A DNA stretch of 54,237 nt from a virus. Each line of letters opens with the position of its first letter. Within the stretch, counting starts at the first letter, position 1. The DNA lies in IMG/VR virus record IMGVR_UViG_3300049830_000086, positions 1 through 54,237 of that record. The stretch is one strand, 5' to 3'. The notes beneath the pieces are model-generated. The model ran no database searches. It had not been told where the DNA came from and was given only the letters and a program-made list of their open reading frames with translations. Made by a program: the position numbers and the translations under genes. Positions 31,768-39,835 of the stretch are shown here, in pieces.

Positions 31768-32085
31768 TTAGCCTTGAGGATCTTCCTTCTTTTCTACTAC
31801 GAAAGTAGACTCGGAAGGTGCATCTTTGACTTCTGTTTTGGTGATAGCTTGCAGAGGATTAAAGATCTGGTTCATCTGGTCCTTGAAAGGCAGATGGTCA
31901 ATTCTTCGAAATCCTTCTAAGCTTTGTGTGACAACTTTAGGAACAGCGCCGGCTTTCTGTTCTTGTGTCTGAATCTTCTTAGCAATCTTAGTCTTAGAGA
32001 CCTTAGGCTTCGTTACCTTAGCTTTGGTAGGTTTCTTAGTGACTTTAACTGCTTTCTTGACAGCTTTATTTACAGGTTTGCTCAT
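31768..32085 (-). CDS. Lysine-rich disordered protein
   Basis: A 105-residue protein. Residues 1-45 are almost only Lys/Val/Thr/Ala/Pro (e.g. KAVKKAVKVTKKPTKAKVTK), like the tails of histone H1-like proteins, and would bind DNA or RNA non-specifically. The C-terminus is acidic and neutral. It overlaps recA by 4 bases and is coupled to it. Perhaps a recombination accessory or nucleoid-like protein. Confidence 0.7.
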   Translation of the reverse strand: MSKPVNKAVKKAVKVTKKPTKAKVTKPKVSKTKIAKKIQTQEQKAGAVPKVVTQSLEGFRRIDHLPFKDQMNQIFNPLQAITKTEVKDAPSESTFVVEKKEDPQG

Positions 32086-33278
32086 AGTTCCTTAGGTTCC
32101 TTATCAGTGTCTCTCTTCTTCTTGCGCTTAGCTAATCTTTCGGATTCACTAGCTTTCAAGTCTTCTTCAGATGGCATGGCTGGAACTTCAAGGACAGTAC
32201 GAATAGCATCCTTAGCTGCTTCAGACCTAGCAATGATTGCGCCCAATTCCTGGTCACGATATTGCTCTTCAGTGCTTAGTGGAATTTCTTCTCCCTCCAA
32301 ACCCTTATAAGTCATTCCATCGATCTTCCAACGATAATAGGCACCACTCTTGTTGATAAGCTCAGGGTAGTGTTCCCCGATCAACCTAACTAACGGTGAA
32401 TACCAATCGATACCACCATTGATGTATAGGTCAAAGTTTACCTTTTGAGTAGAACCTTCACGACCAAGCTTGTTACGAGTACAAGTGATGTCATGCTTAG
32501 AGCCAATCTTGCGTTCAGCTCCGTGTTCGTTAGTCTTCTTCATGTCACCAGTTCGTTCCATCTTGATCTGGTAAGTGCTGCTAAACCTAGGAGCTTCACC
32601 ACCCATCATGGATTCTGCTTCGCCACCGAACGGTACGAAACCACCAATCTTAGTCTTGAGCTGGTTTAGAGCTAGGAATACACAACGTTCATTAGCTAGT
32701 GGATGCTCCATCTCGCGGTAGAAGCGGGCTAATAGACGTGCGTGAGTGCCGGGCATGGTGTTCGTCATGTTGTTTGACGAATCCTGCTCATAATCTGTTG
32801 TGCTGCCTGCAATACTGTCTAGGCAGATGAGAATAGGCATTTGACCATCAGGGTCAATCTTGCCTAAGTTGCGGATAAATAACTCCGCGATGTTCAAAGC
32901 TTCTTCCAAAGTCTGCGGGTGAATCAACTCCACCTCGTCCAACTTCACACCTTGTTTCTTGGCGTATTCCAGATCGATAGCGTTTTCAGTTTCTAGCCAT
33001 ATGACCTTGCCTCCGTTCTTTTGGAATGTTTTGGCGATGTCATAGAATAGGGAGGTCTTTGATGAACTCTTCTTGCCATACACTAGATAGAACCTGCCGT
33101 AAGATAAGTATCTACGGTCAAGCACATGCTCTAATAACGGGTTGTCGAGTAGTAAGCCTGTTGGTGGCTTCTCTTCACTAGCTTTAATAAACTTCGTATC
33201 GCTAGTCTTGTACTTCTTCTCGTACGCTTTCTTAACGGTATCGGTTAACTGGTTGAATAAGTCATTCTGTGTTGGCAT
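32082..33278 (-). CDS. recA: RecA/UvsX-type recombinase
   Basis: A 398-residue RecA-fold ATPase: P-loop YGKKSSSKT at residues 67-75, a catalytic Glu region KVIWLETENAIDLEYAKKQG, the Walker B-like ILICLDSIAGS, and an L2-like ALNQLKTKIGGFVPFG. The C-terminal about 60 residues are charged (ERLAKRKKKRDTDKEPKEL). The P-loop has Ser where the invariant Gly before Lys is expected (GPESSGKT in RecA). It performs strand exchange in phage recombination. It is flanked by RuvC-like and possible SSB genes. Confidence 0.88.
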   Translation of the reverse strand: MPTQNDLFNQLTDTVKKAYEKKYKTSDTKFIKASEEKPPTGLLLDNPLLEHVLDRRYLSYGRFYLVYGKKSSSKTSLFYDIAKTFQKNGGKVIWLETENAIDLEYAKKQGVKLDEVELIHPQTLEEALNIAELFIRNLGKIDPDGQMPILICLDSIAGSTTDYEQDSSNNMTNTMPGTHARLLARFYREMEHPLANERCVFLALNQLKTKIGGFVPFGGEAESMMGGEAPRFSSTYQIKMERTGDMKKTNEHGAERKIGSKHDITCTRNKLGREGSTQKVNFDLYINGGIDWYSPLVRLIGEHYPELINKSGAYYRWKIDGMTYKGLEGEEIPLSTEEQYRDQELGAIIARSEAAKDAIRTVLEVPAMPSEEDLKASESERLAKRKKKRDTDKEPKEL

Positions 33279-33339: not shown

Positions 33340-34377
33340 TTACTTAGTCTTGGACTTCATGTAAGCCATTGCCACCTTTAATGCATCGCTGTCTGCAGCG
33401 AATGCGGGTAGTGCTTCTGAAGCCGTTTCAGCCTTAGCGTTTGCCTTTGGAATGCTCATAGTGGGAGCAATTGTCGCCTTGGGTATTGATGGAGCCTTAG
33501 GAAGAGATAGCATCGGGTTTACTTCCGATTCTACTTCCGTAGAGTCTACCTTCTCTGCAACTTCGTGAATCGGAGCTGCAAATGTTTTAGAAGCTGGAAC
33601 TGCCATACTAACGGTGGTTGTACCGTCATTGTAGCCTTCCATACCTTTCCTAAATATATCGGTGGGCACGATGCTCTTTAGCTTCTCGATCAACTGTTCC
33701 TTAGGAGGATAGTTGATTACTTCATCGAGGTTATAGAGATAATCTGTGTCTGCCAATTCCGTAGGTAGTCTTGTAGTCCTACCAGGATTGATTTGGATCT
33801 TCCAAGGCTGACCGCTAGCCTTAAGATCAAGTTTGATGTTAACTACGATAGCTTTCTCGTAGTCCGTCAACTCAGGATTCGGGGAATTGTCTTCCTGTTT
33901 ACCGCGAGTAAACTCGTCGATAACGCTAGCTCCACCTGATTGTGGTAAGTCAAGAACGTGAACTCCTGAGCCGAACTCATTATGAATTGCGGCATTGTAA
34001 AGAACTCTCCATGCAGTCCTACCCCATGCAGGGTAGACCCAGCGAGTTTTACCCGCTTCGTCCTTCACTTGTTCACTTTTAGCCATGTTCGGCGCAAACG
34101 TCTGCACTTTATTTGCGAAATATTCTATCGGGCAATTAGGTTGTACTGCGAATTTCTCCTTGTACAATCCCATGCCGAAGTTATCTCGTATTTTTAAGGG
34201 ACGATACCAGACACCTGCACCTGCACTGTCTGTTTTATAGCCACCTAAAATGTAGAGGTATACGCCGTTTTCTTTGTTCTTGAAGTCTACTAAACGAGTT
34301 CCTGACTTGATGTAAGTTGAGGATCTCTGGGTGAGGTCGCCGCCTTCGAATGTTCTAGATGCTCTGATTATAGGCAT
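33340..34377 (-). CDS. Possible single-stranded DNA-binding protein
   Basis: A 345-residue protein. The N-terminal half is beta-rich with many aromatics (GVYLYILGGYKTDSAGAGVWY; VYPAWGRTAWRVLYNAAIHNE; IVVNIKLDLKASGQPWKIQI). The C-terminal 110 residues are low-complexity Ala/Pro/Ser with repeated IPKA motifs. OB-fold SSBs of phages share this split, and its position next to recA supports it, but no diagnostic motif is present. The upstream promoter-like motif is shared with the Ubl gene. Confidence 0.45.
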   Translation of the reverse strand: MPIIRASRTFEGGDLTQRSSTYIKSGTRLVDFKNKENGVYLYILGGYKTDSAGAGVWYRPLKIRDNFGMGLYKEKFAVQPNCPIEYFANKVQTFAPNMAKSEQVKDEAGKTRWVYPAWGRTAWRVLYNAAIHNEFGSGVHVLDLPQSGGASVIDEFTRGKQEDNSPNPELTDYEKAIVVNIKLDLKASGQPWKIQINPGRTTRLPTELADTDYLYNLDEVINYPPKEQLIEKLKSIVPTDIFRKGMEGYNDGTTTVSMAVPASKTFAAPIHEVAEKVDSTEVESEVNPMLSLPKAPSIPKATIAPTMSIPKANAKAETASEALPAFAADSDALKVAMAYMKSKTK

Positions 34378-34488: not shown

Positions 34489-35106
34489 TTACAACATTAG
34501 CACGACCGGGTCAAGCTGTAAATCGTCGCGCAAATAGTTGAGAAATGTCTGGGTCATCATGCCGGCTACGATCTGCGGAGTTACGTGTGAAGTCTTATTC
34601 TTCTTATCGTACTCTAACAGACAGCCGGTGCGTTCTTTGCTGTTGGTGATAGCTTTTTCCAATACCGACTTTTCGAGTCGTGAGTGGTAAAGTCCTACTT
34701 GACGAGATGAACAACGCCCGTCAATCCAGAACAATTCAGGGTGGGTATAACCGTACTCGTAGAGGTCTTTGCGAAAAGACATACTGTCAACGGCACTGAA
34801 TATTACGTCAAAGTTTCCAAAATCCTTTTTAGTCAAGAAGCGTTTGTGAGCTTTGACCATATCAAGACAACGTTCGGCGACGATCTCGGACTTATACTTG
34901 CCGATATCTTCGTCGTAGAAGTTTTGATGGAGGAGGTTGGAAGCATCCACAATATCATCATCGAAGATGTCTATCGTGGATCCACCGAAATCAAACTGAT
35001 TTCGTTTCGCACCGTAATCAAACAGGTTGGCTGCTAAGAAGGCTCCGATACCTCCCGCGCCTGCTATGGCTATGCGATCAATTTTAGCTTTAGTTTTAGT
35101 ACTCAT
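34489..35106 (-). CDS. E1/ThiF-like adenylyltransferase
   Basis: A 205-residue Rossmann protein: GAGGIG at residues 16-21, DIFDDDIVDASNLLHQNFYDEDIGKYKSEIVAER at 46-79 (D-x-D...N-L-x-x-Q-x-x-x-x-x-x-x-G-x-x-K, the ATP/Mg site of the E1/MoeB/ThiF family), VIFSAVD at about 101-107, and Cys residues at about 132 and 162 (RTGCLLEY) that could carry a thioester. It is shorter than MoeB but complete in its nucleotide site. It lies 5 bases after the JAB protease gene. It would adenylate the C-terminus of a ubiquitin-like protein. Confidence 0.82.
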   Translation of the reverse strand: MSTKTKAKIDRIAIAGAGGIGAFLAANLFDYGAKRNQFDFGGSTIDIFDDDIVDASNLLHQNFYDEDIGKYKSEIVAERCLDMVKAHKRFLTKKDFGNFDVIFSAVDSMSFRKDLYEYGYTHPELFWIDGRCSSRQVGLYHSRLEKSVLEKAITNSKERTGCLLEYDKKNKTSHVTPQIVAGMMTQTFLNYLRDDLQLDPVVLML

Positions 35107-35110
35107 TTAG

Positions 35111-35626
35111 TTATAGATTTTCAGATTCGATCCACGCAGAGCTCATGTAAGTTCTTCCTTGATCCGGTGCAAAACCATGGAACTTAAGGACACTACTGTA
35201 GAGCCACTTGCTATGATTATCTTCCTTTACGTGGTTAGGATTATAATCGAACCTATTCAATTCCTTGCTTGGTGCATAAATGAAATTGATAGGGAAACTG
35301 GTAAACAACATGTTGACGTCAATACTACTTGGCATCGCCCTCATACCTAACGGGTGTGTATGATAGCTAGCAAAGATCGACCATCCATCGTCGATAGTTC
35401 GCAAGAACACATTGTTGTTGAACTCGTCGTCGTCGGCTACATATAGTCCGACCGCTTGAGTTGTACCGGTTATTTTGTTTTTAACCGGTACAAACTCATA
35501 ATTCTCTTTGCCTGCTTCCTTCAAAATAAAACCACCCTGCTCTTCAGCCAAGGCATGGTTATAGTGTGATATTGCTGACAAAAGGCACTGGTCTAGAAAT
35601 GTTCTGGATGTCTTTAGTGAATTCAT
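35111..35626 (-). CDS. JAB/JAMM metalloprotease
   Basis: A 171-residue protein with the full JAMM zinc site: Glu 28/29 in LAEEQGGF, then SYHTHPLGMRAMPSSID giving H89-x-H91 and S100-x-x-D103. This is the isopeptidase or deubiquitinase active site. The first 68 bases overlap the upstream gene in another frame; the long N-terminal helix belongs to the fold, so the overlap seems real. Beside the E1-like gene and the GG-ending small protein it would mature or remove a ubiquitin-like modifier. Confidence 0.85.
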   Translation of the reverse strand: MNSLKTSRTFLDQCLLSAISHYNHALAEEQGGFILKEAGKENYEFVPVKNKITGTTQAVGLYVADDDEFNNNVFLRTIDDGWSIFASYHTHPLGMRAMPSSIDVNMLFTSFPINFIYAPSKELNRFDYNPNHVKEDNHSKWLYSSVLKFHGFAPDQGRTYMSSAWIESENL

Positions 35627-35957
35627 CGATACGAGAGATAATTTCTTTTTTCAAATCATCGGAAAACTTTGTTTCCCAATGGTCTGCATGCTTCATAATG
35701 ACTTTGAAACACTGACAGACAATTTTCGTTTCATACAGTCTACGTTTTTTCCTGATAGAATCAGGTTCTTTTTCCGTCGGCGTGAGTTCCAGCGGGTTTA
35801 CTGTAGGGGCTACTCCCCAAAACACTTCACCTGGCCAATCGATAGGTTTTAACATATCGATTGCCATACTTACCGCCTCGGGTTGGTCTTCCCAATCCTC
35901 AGCGATAAGCTGGGCGAGCTGATAACACGTCGCGAAAACTAGATCTTCGCGGTCCAT
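35559..35957 (-). CDS. Unknown protein of the Ubl/JAB/E1 operon
   Basis: A 132-residue, mainly helical protein (LVFATCYQLAQLIAEDWEDQPEAVS; YETKIVCQCFKVIMKHADHW) with three Cys. It has no E2-type HPN motif. Position between the coiled-coil protein and the JAB protease, with overlap at its end, suggests a shared function. It is unrecognised; an adaptor or a diverged conjugating component are possibilities only. Confidence 0.68.
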   Translation of the reverse strand: MDREDLVFATCYQLAQLIAEDWEDQPEAVSMAIDMLKPIDWPGEVFWGVAPTVNPLELTPTEKEPDSIRKKRRLYETKIVCQCFKVIMKHADHWETKFSDDLKKEIISRIDEFTKDIQNISRPVPFVSNITL

Positions 35958-35964
35958 GGTTTGA

Positions 35965-36546
35965 TTACTCGATTAGAGCAACCTGCACTTGCACTGGCAA
36001 TGTCTTATCGACAACCAAGTTGTCTTCTGCGCTAAGGACGACATGGCGTTCATTGTGGAACTCAGGGTCGATAACGGTAGAAGTCTTGACAGTCGGACGA
36101 AGGCCGTACTCAGCAGTTGCTTCTGTGATGCTTCTGGAAACTTCCAACATCTCATCCTTTGTAAGACCAGTCAAATCAACAGTCAAATGCTGACTGTCTT
36201 GAATGTAGTCTAACAACGGATGTCCCTCACCCAAGAGCTTAGCGAGAGTCTGTGCATGCTGGCTATCTTTGATGACGTATGAATTTACGAAGTTGACTTG
36301 AAGTCCTCCTACGTCAAAGGAGTGCACTACTTCGTTCTGGTCTTCTGCAGTTGCATTGAAGCCGAAATAGGCTGGCTTTAGCAAGTCCTTGAGATCGACT
36401 TTGAGCTCGCCTTCAAGCTTCTCAGCTTTACGACGAACTTCGATCAACTGTTCAAGTTTAGCTGTGAGCTTTCCAGCCTGTCTTTGCTGAGCTGCTGAGA
36501 GCTCTAGGTCCAAAGACTCATTTGGATAATTACTGATTGCTGACAT
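35965..36546 (-). CDS. Coiled-coil/beta protein of the Ubl operon
   Basis: A 193-residue protein. Residues 15-50 form a coiled coil (LSAAQQRQAGKLTAKLEQLI), and the rest is alpha/beta (FDVGGLQVNFVNSYVIKDSQHAQTLAKLLGE). No catalytic motif recognised. It starts 4 bases after the 671-residue gene and ends 8 bases before the next. Unknown role. Confidence 0.7.
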   Translation of the reverse strand: MSAISNYPNESLDLELSAAQQRQAGKLTAKLEQLIEVRRKAEKLEGELKVDLKDLLKPAYFGFNATAEDQNEVVHSFDVGGLQVNFVNSYVIKDSQHAQTLAKLLGEGHPLLDYIQDSQHLTVDLTGLTKDEMLEVSRSITEATAEYGLRPTVKTSTVIDPEFHNERHVVLSAEDNLVVDKTLPVQVQVALIE

Positions 36547-36549
36547 AAG

Positions 36550-38565
36550 TTAGCGTTTAAGTGTGTGGATTTGTTTAGCCATCATCTCATCGTTAGCGAG
36601 CGCGAATAAACGAGCGACTAAAGCATCTCTGCCTACGCCCATCTCGCCTCTATTAACAATACAGACATAGCTTCCGTTCTTGTCGTCGTGATGTTCCCAA
36701 ACTTTGTTAACACCTTCGGTTTCAACGAAGTAGCTACGCATTTTGCCCTTCACGACGTAACCTTGCTTACCGTCACGAGTGCTAGCTTTAGCACCGGTCA
36801 AGTCGCAGGCTTCTTTGAGCAGTTCTTCGGAGCGTTTCTCCGCTTCACTTAGCTCATAGTTGATTACACCAACAATATTCTTTTTGTCTTCTTCAGTAAT
36901 ACCATCAGCATAGGTGGTCAACATCTCTGCGAGTTTAGTACCGCAGGTGTTACCACTTGAATTGTTATTCTTCGGAACAAAGAAACCTTCCTTTGTCTGA
37001 GTGTAGTCGCCCTGATAACCCATGTAGGCTTGGCGATTGACTTGGTCTACCTTCTTCACGAACTCAGCGAACTTGCCGATCTTATACTCGTGTGTAGCCA
37101 ATACTTTCGTCTTATCCTTAGGATCATAGATGTTTACGACTAAGTAGAAACCTTTAGCGTTCTTAGCATCTTTGTGGACGAACCTTAGTTTAGGATGCTT
37201 GAGTGTTGCAGGCTTACCATAGCTGTTCCTGTCAGTCTCAAAGAAGACTGTCTTAACAGGTAGACCATTAGCCCATACATCACGGATCTTTAGTGAGTGA
37301 CGAGAGACGTTACTGATGAACTTGTCAAAGTTCTCAATGTTGCTGCCTACCGGGTCACCTTCGACCTGTTGATAGCAGCTAGCACGTCTTAGGACTGGAC
37401 TAAGCTCATCGACGTTAATCAAGTGACCGTTGATGCTGCGCCTAGTATTTTCAGTAGAACAAGAGATCTTTAACGGAATGTCATTGATCTTGAATGAGAA
37501 GTTCTTAGCTTCGGCAAATCCAGTCTCATCTGCGTTAAGCGTCAGACCCTTGAATTGGTCGTTCACCCAGTCAGTATAGATATTGATTAGTGTAAAGATG
37601 TCCCACTCAGCTTCATTAGGATTCAGCTTAGAGAAGACGACTTCAGCCAAGTTCTTGGCTTCAATACTAACATGACCAGCAGTGTAGTCAGCGCGGGTAG
37701 AAGTGATACGGATACCATTCAAATCAATGAACGGGCTCTCAGCTCTCTTCAATTTACCAATCATGACGTTAGAAGTGTTCTTGCTAAAGTCTTCCTGGAT
37801 CCTTGTTTTAAGCTGGATATACTGATCGCGTAGTTTAGCCGGCATAGCTTTTTCCATCTTAAGCAGCTGCAACCTACAGTCTTTGCTAGGGATGAATGCC
37901 TTATGCTGGATGATCTCGTCGATTGCTGGAGGATAGACTGATGCAGCCGCTATGACATAGTTCATGTCTAGAGTCACTGCATCCGTGATAAACATACGAT
38001 GACCGTCTTCTATTGAGTCGCCAGTCGAGACGTAGCAAATCACATGGCCTTGGTCGACATAGTTGTAAAAGGGAGTTTGTTCATCTGCGCAGAAGACTAG
38101 TTGTCCGCCGCTGTAGACACCACCGTGAATACATGACCTAATCGTATGACCATTGCCGTCTGATTTTTCAGGAACAGCCTTTTCGAGTAGATAGAGGTTT
38201 ACGCGGTTGTTGTTGTCAAACACGCTAGCAGCGTAGAATTTGACACCTGGAACATTTTTACGGTACAGGTCACCGTTAACTTTGGTGCAGTTAGCATCCT
38301 TAGTCATAGCATCCAGGCCTTTGAAACCTTGGATTGCATCAAGCTGGATTGTGTTGGGAGCTGCCGTCCAAATATCAGCCAACGCACGTAGCGAAGTGAC
38401 ATTCTTGAACGTAGCGTAAAAGCCGATTTGATAGTATGCGCTTTGTGACCCTTCACCGGCTACATACTTTTCAGTTTTGTTGATTTCAAATTCGAGATTG
38501 GCTTTCTTCAGCTTGTTAAAATAGTTCAGGTAATAGTTAAGATTTTCGAGAGTAATTGCGTGCAT
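36550..38565 (-). CDS. Large unknown protein of the Ubl operon
   Basis: A 671-residue multidomain protein with mixed alpha/beta segments, for example TIRSCIHGGVYSGGQLVFCAD, LKHPKLRFVHKDAKNAKGFYL and a C-terminal helical stretch. No known motif was recognised, nor a signal peptide or membrane span. It is the largest gene of the operon, 87 bases after the Ubl candidate. Possible roles include substrate, carrier or ligase of the modifier, but nothing in the sequence decides this. A DNA-sliding or replication accessory role is equally open. Confidence 0.72.
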   Translation of the reverse strand: MHAITLENLNYYLNYFNKLKKANLEFEINKTEKYVAGEGSQSAYYQIGFYATFKNVTSLRALADIWTAAPNTIQLDAIQGFKGLDAMTKDANCTKVNGDLYRKNVPGVKFYAASVFDNNNRVNLYLLEKAVPEKSDGNGHTIRSCIHGGVYSGGQLVFCADEQTPFYNYVDQGHVICYVSTGDSIEDGHRMFITDAVTLDMNYVIAAASVYPPAIDEIIQHKAFIPSKDCRLQLLKMEKAMPAKLRDQYIQLKTRIQEDFSKNTSNVMIGKLKRAESPFIDLNGIRITSTRADYTAGHVSIEAKNLAEVVFSKLNPNEAEWDIFTLINIYTDWVNDQFKGLTLNADETGFAEAKNFSFKINDIPLKISCSTENTRRSINGHLINVDELSPVLRRASCYQQVEGDPVGSNIENFDKFISNVSRHSLKIRDVWANGLPVKTVFFETDRNSYGKPATLKHPKLRFVHKDAKNAKGFYLVVNIYDPKDKTKVLATHEYKIGKFAEFVKKVDQVNRQAYMGYQGDYTQTKEGFFVPKNNNSSGNTCGTKLAEMLTTYADGITEEDKKNIVGVINYELSEAEKRSEELLKEACDLTGAKASTRDGKQGYVVKGKMRSYFVETEGVNKVWEHHDDKNGSYVCIVNRGEMGVGRDALVARLFALANDEMMAKQIHTLKR

Positions 38566-38604
38566 GTTGAGATGTGGGTGTTGTATACTAGCGCTATTAG
38601 CAAT

Positions 38605-38636
38605 AAGAAGAGTCTTTTAATTTTGTGACTCCTCTT
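38605..38636 (-). other. 10-bp hairpin between Ubl candidate and 671-residue gene
   Basis: AAGAGGAGTC/GACTCTTCTT with a 12-nt loop in the 86-base gap. No U-tract follows. It could tune the ratio of the Ubl to downstream genes. Confidence 0.45.
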
Positions 38637-38651
38637 GTTGTTGATAGGTGC

Positions 38652-38951
38652 TTAGTGCGTGCCACCTGCGAGAGCACCAGTGATGAAAATCACGGGTTCC
38701 TCGTATTCCTTAAGGATAGAGTGGAAACGAATAGTGTCCTTAAGTAAGCCTTCAGCGTCATTAATGTCGCGTGCTTGTAGCTCAAAGGGCCTGACGCCGT
38801 TTTGGCTACGAACATTGATGTTTTTACCATTAGTGAAGTGGTAAGTAAAGGCAGTCTTGATAGCGTCGTCGATCTGTTGTTCCAGAGTTGAGTGTCCGGT
38901 TTGATCTAGGATCTTAATCTTGACGATGATGTTTGCGGTAGTCTTGTTCAT
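38652..38951 (-). CDS. Ubiquitin-like protein candidate ending in GG-TH
   Basis: A 99-residue protein with a beta-grasp-like order: strand ANIIVKIKIL, helix EQQIDDAIKTAFTYHF, strands NINVRS and RPFELQ, and last strand EPVIFITGALAGG-TH. Gly96-Gly97 followed by two residues is the arrangement of a Ubl precursor needing C-terminal trimming. The JAB protease and the E1-like enzyme are encoded 3 kb downstream in the same direction. The fold is inferred from pattern only. The shared promoter-like motif lies just upstream. Confidence 0.55.
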   Translation of the reverse strand: MNKTTANIIVKIKILDQTGHSTLEQQIDDAIKTAFTYHFTNGKNINVRSQNGVRPFELQARDINDAEGLLKDTIRFHSILKEYEEPVIFITGALAGGTH

Positions 38952-39091: not shown

Positions 39092-39835
39092 TTAATGAAT
39101 CTTGAACTTAATGTTCCTCAGACGGATGTCGTCTGTATAAGTGAAGCAAAGCTTGCAGGATGCGCAAGCACCTTTAGTGTCGGTGTTGGCCACCTTACCG
39201 TAAGTCTCAGGGCATCCTACGAATTTCTCAGTAGTATCCTCAGGCTTAGGTTCTCCTAAATGTGCCATTCCTATATTCTTGTAGGTTGGCTTCAAAGAAT
39301 CATAAATTTTAACCGCAGTCTTCATGTTGACCGGGTCTATACTTAGATAGACAGCCAGGTTAGGAGCTTGGACAAGTATATGTGCAAACTCATGGCTTCT
39401 AGTGTACGTCCAGAATTTGACTTCCGGAAACTTGCTGCAACTTGCGACTATAGCTCTGGCAAACTGTTCGGAGAATACGTCTCCACTGTAAAACAGTCTG
39501 AAATACCAGTGCTCCTTCGTATTACTGTTGACGAAATTTTGGAAGGTGTTAGACAACACCGTCACTTGCTCATCATAGGACTTGCCTACGACAGCTTGTG
39601 TGTTATTGTCTAAAACCTTCCCAACCGCCTTGTAAATTTGTACTATCTTAGCCATATAACAGGTTTCCCTTTTTCTACCTGTTCGTACGTCTAAGCAACC
39701 ACCAGCACCAGAAGTGGCACCAGGGCATGTTCCGCCATCCTTAGGCAAACCGTAATTAAGTCCAAACGTATTCCTATGATTGGACCTAAATTTTACTTTG
39801 CCGTTGTCTGTAAGGGTCAGACTAGGGGTAAGCAT
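39092..39835 (-). CDS. Phage gp88-like Cys protein
   Basis: A 247-residue protein resembling the mycobacteriophage gene 88 product family: KDGGTCPGATSGAGGCLDVRTGRKRETCYMAKIV at residues 32-65, a central WYFRLFYSGDVFSEQF and FWTYTRSHEF, and a C-terminal GACASCKLCF. The eight or so Cys in C-P-G-A and CxxCxxC clusters could bind an Fe-S cluster or zinc. The family is common in phages and of unknown function. The 140-base gap on its downstream side has only A/T-rich sequence and the promoter-like motif. Confidence 0.68.
   Translation of the reverse strand: MLTPSLTLTDNGKVKFRSNHRNTFGLNYGLPKDGGTCPGATSGAGGCLDVRTGRKRETCYMAKIVQIYKAVGKVLDNNTQAVVGKSYDEQVTVLSNTFQNFVNSNTKEHWYFRLFYSGDVFSEQFARAIVASCSKFPEVKFWTYTRSHEFAHILVQAPNLAVYLSIDPVNMKTAVKIYDSLKPTYKNIGMAHLGEPKPEDTTEKFVGCPETYGKVANTDTKGACASCKLCFTYTDDIRLRNIKFKIH

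Follow-up and report, generated by a model that had tools for sequence, protein, structure and literature searches.

A putative ubiquitin-like conjugation cassette among the replication genes of environmental phages

Bacterial ubiquitin-like conjugation is now studied chiefly as an anti-phage defence, with type II CBASS and Bil as the examples. What use a phage itself could have for a ubiquitin-like protein (Ubl), a JAB protease and an E1-like activating enzyme is the question raised by IMG/VR virus record IMGVR_UViG_3300049830_000086, of which the whole analysed stretch of 54,237 nucleotides is called the window here. On its minus strand, from 39.8 down to 32.1 kb, lie the genes for a Gp88-like protein, Ubl, a 671-residue protein (p671), p193, p132, JAB, E1, p345 and a UvsX-like recombinase. 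An earlier note, made from the sequence of the window, had described a set of open reading frames at 38951-34489; all of these are present and run in one direction. The analysis was wholly computational and concerns IMG/VR contigs of uncultured phages, records that may be fragments. A literature search, thin on subscription journals, found no paper describing such a phage cassette.

Relatives were collected by an E1 search of IMG/VR and subsequent alignment queries reaching contigs of up to 204 kb, and the four genes were detected with HMMs built from nine diverse members. In this way 30 different environmental phage cassettes with all four genes were found, identical p671 proteins being counted once and some members being closely related. 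The gene order Ubl-p671-JAB-E1 is identical in all 30. Where a viral locus is without one of the members, the contig end cuts near the cassette; the exception, L061, is a remote E1 match without the other cassette genes. The co-conservation is far beyond chance. For one closer pair of relatives, dN/dS was 0.075 for Ubl, 0.10 for p671 and 0.06 for JAB, the synonymous sites of E1 being saturated in that pair; Ubl, p671 and JAB are thus under strong purifying selection. No p671 was detected by tblastn among 50,697 phage records, and a species-genome scan gave, among the matches listed, remote ThiF-like matches only and no cassette.

The earlier note had placed unknown partners between the recognizable genes, four according to its title and three according to its text, and the latter count is the correct one. 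They are not equivalent. The protein p671 (36550..38565) occurs in 30 of the 30 cassettes and is the sole core partner among the three proteins without a family, whereas p193 (35965..36546) and p132 (35559..35957, overlapping the JAB gene by 68 nt) are lineage-specific extras, with homologs in 2 and 3 of 29 representative loci, respectively, and with no family match in the searches done for the window. Several relatives instead carry an ORF for a DnaQ-like exonuclease between p671 and JAB, recognized by eye from IDIET ... NGNNFDIPFL (e.g. L041:8828-9523 and L053:8864-9490), the motif being degenerate in some of them.

The surroundings of the cassette are also conserved. That the set lies among replication genes had already been pointed out for the window, and it extends to the relatives, since nearly all cassettes sit between DNA polymerase A and UvsX: the polymerase gene is upstream in 27 of the 29 representative loci and UvsX downstream in 28. 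The upstream neighbour in most loci, present in 25 of the 29, is the gene for the Gp88-like protein (window 39092..39835, minus strand; PF17338, 101.6 bits). Downstream, on the same strand, follow p345 (33340..34377), a protein without family that is next to or near the cassette in 28/29 loci, and the UvsX/RecA-like recombinase (32082..33278; phrog_97, E 4.9e-42). A role of p345 as single-stranded DNA-binding protein was considered and was not supported by the tests. Farther upstream of the cassette are DNA polymerase A, a DnaB-like helicase, a further helicase, an SMC/SbcC-like ATPase and a calcineurin-like phosphoesterase, together with a weak match to a DnaG-like primase. The 28 kb from 433 to 28657 hold 31 tRNA genes among many small ORFs. 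Terminase family phrog_2 was matched by one of ten records.

The Ubl gene (38652..38951, minus strand) encodes 99 residues with the C-terminus ALAGG-TH (...GALAGGTH). The protein had no match in the family searches for the window, and its assignment comes from structure prediction. The AlphaFold2 model (mean pLDDT 83.8) consists of a single Ubl domain with the element order EEHEEHE (strand-strand-helix-strand-strand-helix-strand) and a floppy C-terminus. Its matches in the PDB are mostly beta-grasp proteins of the PB1, UBL and UBX types, among them an archaeal ubiquitin (6fno) and, from a bacterial E1-E2-Ubl complex, the Ubl component (8tyz); the scores are modest (best Z 6.3), and therefore indicate the fold class only and not the family. 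A beta-grasp fold is thus predicted, in agreement with the earlier note, and the non-beta-grasp outcome that it had set as refutation did not arise. Four positions of the Ubl alignment are invariant, and two of these are the GG, found in 30/30 proteins. Four Ubls have no tail after the GG (L008, L021, L047, L060), others have short tails (C, TH, AN, TK or SK), and long tails of about 75, 110 and 150 residues occur in L009, L017 and L020, the L020 precursor having 243 residues in all. An invariant GG with a tail of anything from 0 to about 150 residues behind it is the pattern expected of a processed ubiquitin-like precursor, and the Gly96-Gly97 codons (38661..38666, minus strand) are the presumed point of processing and activation. 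As Ala, and not Lys or Arg, precedes the GG, trypsin will leave no GG remnant from the Ubl of the window, and the GG-remnant mass spectrometry suggested in the earlier note would not work with this protease; the homolog in L028, which has VLRGG, would yield such a remnant.

The variable tails make a trimming protease meaningful, and the JAB/JAMM metalloprotease (35111..35626, minus strand; 171 residues) is a suitable candidate. It was recognized as Prok-JAB (PF14464; 26.8 bits with a cut-off of 25), and the metal-site residues E29, H89-x-H91, S100 and D103 (H89-x-H91 ... S100-x2-D103 at 35318..35362, minus strand) were kept in nine out of nine diverse aligned members, so that its earlier description as intact stands. 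Since the four Ubls that already end at the GG are still accompanied by a JAB, trimming cannot be its only role.

The activating enzyme (34489..35106, minus strand; 205 residues) was rightly described as E1/ThiF-like: it matches ThiF (PF00899) with 59.1 bits (cut-off 28.1) and has the conserved residues N57, Q61, K72, D107 and C162. The candidate thioester cysteine C162 (codon 34621..34623, minus strand) is invariant and corresponds in the alignment to Cys184 of E. coli ThiF, within the PERNCRTAG (NC) motif, and also to a cysteine in 8/8 PRTRC ThiF proteins and in E1s of crAss-like and jumbo phages. The ThiF-type cysteine is missing from most of the remote genome matches; E1-like proteins of Poseidoniales archaea (L062-L064) differ from the other genome matches in keeping this cysteine together with the GR motif of the phage E1s. 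A maximum-likelihood tree groups the E1s of the phage cassettes in one clade (100/99), those of PRTRC systems with one Alicyclobacillus plasmid E1 in a second (100/97), and those of crAss-like and jumbo phages in a third (93/91); the tree does not resolve how these clades branch relative to one another. An E1 of the crAss-like type or remoter was found in 78 phage records. In one relative the E1 gene is split, a 1.15-kb insert (L057:8829-9982) separating DDDTV from KNLLHQN. This insert contains a LAGLIDADG-like ORF, recognized by eye, and probably represents a self-splicing intron that carries a homing endonuclease; a search of this insert against Rfam gave no match.

The closest known kind of gene set is the PRTRC plasmid cassette, which seems to correspond to operon type 6d in Iyer et al. 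2006 (PMC1779556). Its gene logic is the same, but E1, Ubl and p671 of the phages are not PRTRC members. It has the order ParB - E - C/Ubl - F - B/E2_D - A/JAB - ThiF and, like the phage cassette, encodes Ubl, JAB and a single-domain ThiF-like E1 as separate genes in the order Ubl ... JAB - E1, with an E2 (in the phages a candidate) in the slot between. PRTRC cassettes are often found beside replication or partition genes, sometimes near dnaN. The E1 is the sole component that profile comparison links to PRTRC (99.7% with PRTRC ThiF), yet it scores 46 bits where the PRTRC_ThiF cut-off is 144.75, and it belongs to its own clade. Comparison of the phage Ubl, p671 and JAB extras with PRTRC C, B and F by hhalign gave probabilities below 1%. 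In the phages p671 takes the place of PRTRC F and B, and no ParB-E pair was seen at the phage cassette.

The phage cassette shares its four-component logic with BilABCD (Ubl, E2, JAB, E1), in which the Ubl is a tandem, the E2 is of the CEHH type and the E1 has two domains, one of them a Cys domain (PMC11354881). It differs in having a single Ubl, an E1 of 205 residues and no conserved E/H set after C635 of p671, the CEHH pattern thus being absent. In lambda and T1, too, a phage Ubl (TAPI) is accompanied by a JAB peptidase (TAPK; PMC1779556), but that set belongs to the tail module and lacks an E1, whereas the present one includes an E1 and belongs to the replication module. A likeness was also seen by eye in crAss001, where gp79-gp76 (L080:3328-7738), as in the relatives L011 and L082, comprise a Ubl-like protein, a large protein, a JAB and a ThiF; this set adjoins the primase and is annotated as thiamine biosynthesis and metalloprotease. 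The Xanthomonas jumbo phage PhiXhv-12 (L010:4682-8558) has a 140-residue protein ending in SGG, an 892-residue protein and a ThiF-like E1, with no JAB annotated there. Its 892-residue protein has Cys-rich ends and a stretch HPHM...GSLCLG that looks E2-like by eye. Both sets lie among replication genes, as does the phage cassette, but their E1s are in a different clade, and by tblastn their middle proteins are unrelated to p671.

The remaining core component is p671. The earlier note had stated that the set lacks an identifiable E2, a statement with which we partly disagree, because a candidate for an E2-like domain, containing an invariant cysteine, is present in p671, even though profile searches do not confirm it. 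Out of ten cysteines, C397 (codon 37375..37377, minus strand; RASC motif) and C635 (codon 36661..36663, minus strand) alone are invariant (29/29). The model of p671 has a pLDDT of 80.8, and its C-terminal part (residues 558-671; 36553..36894, minus strand) shows a helix (558-590), five strands (593-597, 600-606, 611-615, 622-626 and 629-634), C635, and a second helix (646-657). An E2 fold is a four-strand meander with flanking helices (PMC1779556). In the model the order of elements resembles that of an E2, with C635 placed much as the active-site cysteine would be, which makes the region a candidate UBC/RWD-type domain and C635 a candidate transfer cysteine. VIA matches of residues 575-671 were weak and dominated by Mediator subunits, next to kinetochore and THO proteins, while E2s stood low in the list (1pzv, Z 2.6; 5jne_F, Z 2.5). 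Several of the non-E2 proteins in that list have RWD domains. Eight residues before C635, 27 of the 29 rows have Asn or Asp, the window and L002 having a three-residue insertion there, and E2s (with the Asn of HPN) and most PRTRC-B proteins have an Asn at the same spacing before their cysteine.

Sequence comparisons do not bear out this resemblance. No Pfam E2 family matches p671 in 29 members, and hhalign found nothing when the C-terminus was compared with PRTRC-B or with a two-row profile of UBE2D2 and UBE2I. By sequence, p671 matched nothing in the PDB and no curated family above cut-off, and Foldseek gave no significant full-length match to the PDB; in BFVD there were two hits, both to viral proteins without a name (E 3e-7 and 2e-6). 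Below cut-off, DUF7737 (PF24879) matched the C-terminal region in 23/29 members (best E 0.0016), and this uncharacterized bacterial domain may be a distant relative that shares the CIV cysteine. E. coli YehI, examined as a possible relative, gave no match. The empty profile searches are what would be expected if p671 were not an E2 but a substrate, receptor or scaffold, with direct transfer of the Ubl from E1 or transfer via a host enzyme. The size of p671, far above that of an E2, and the lack of a known fold for most of it point in the same direction, whereas the invariance of C635 at a seemingly E2-like position, the E2s among the weak structural matches and the E2 that PRTRC has in the equivalent slot between Ubl and JAB argue against it. 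A conjugation cassette of that type is a serious possibility, only a little less than evenly balanced, and we consider the chances that p671 fulfils the E2 role to be about even.

With the observed genes, their co-conservation and the invariant residues in Ubl, JAB and E1, together with the modelled folds, we consider it quite probable that the cassette is a phage-encoded system for reversible ubiquitin-like conjugation, used in phage DNA replication or recombination. In this scheme, JAB would cut the Ubl precursor after Gly97, and E1 would adenylate the exposed Gly-Gly and hold the Ubl as a thioester on C162. The Ubl would then move to p671, with C635 of the E2-like C-terminal domain as the likely transfer cysteine, and the remainder of p671 might form a substrate-binding or E3-like body. 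From there it would be attached, through a lysine, to some protein with a function close to replication, encoded by either the phage or the host, and JAB would undo the attachment. The position of the cassette suggests that the substrate is replication-linked, which we regard as possible, at somewhat less than an even chance. More tentative still is the complete picture, in which the conjugation system is self-sufficient, forms a lineage of its own, has a novel type of E2 inside a large substrate-binding p671, and during infection reversibly modifies a protein of replication or recombination.

Since host anti-phage systems employ E1-E2-JAB chemistry (PMC10097602, PMC11153139), the cassette could alternatively serve counter-defence, which the earlier note had also suggested, by tagging or de-tagging components of host systems such as type II CBASS or Bil, and the E1 does match the E1-E2 models of PADLOC weakly. 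This is unlikely, as counter-defence genes are usually patchy while almost every relative retains the cassette among its replication genes, and a full set with its own Ubl exceeds what an inhibitor needs. Some relatives of sulfur-carrier systems, namely TtuB and Urm1, perform both sulfur transfer and conjugation. A function of the Ubl as a sulfur carrier of the ThiS/MoaD/Urm1/TtuB type, with E1 loading sulfur destined for tRNAs (perhaps the phage's own 31) or another molecule, would suit the ThiF-like E1 with its ThiF cysteine and the tRNA genes of the window, but it is very improbable in view of the location with replication genes, of the invariant JAB and p671, for which a plain sulfur pathway has no place, and of the absence of rhodanese, ATP_bind_3 (TtuA type) and Aminotran_5 from the window and nine related records, although these may be fragments and a host could supply such functions.

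Ubiquitin-like conjugation as part of replication or recombination remains the preferred reading. Phages themselves keep a full Ubl cassette within their replication module, under strong purifying selection, and cassettes of similar appearance are present in a jumbo phage and in crAss-like phages that have been cultured, with their E1 carrying a thiamine biosynthesis annotation. Should the candidate E2-like domain of p671, which is unmatched by sequence in Pfam, PHROGs and the PDB, be confirmed, E2 evolution would gain a further branch. Confirmation of the chemistry would mean that these phages routinely tag proteins when they replicate their DNA.
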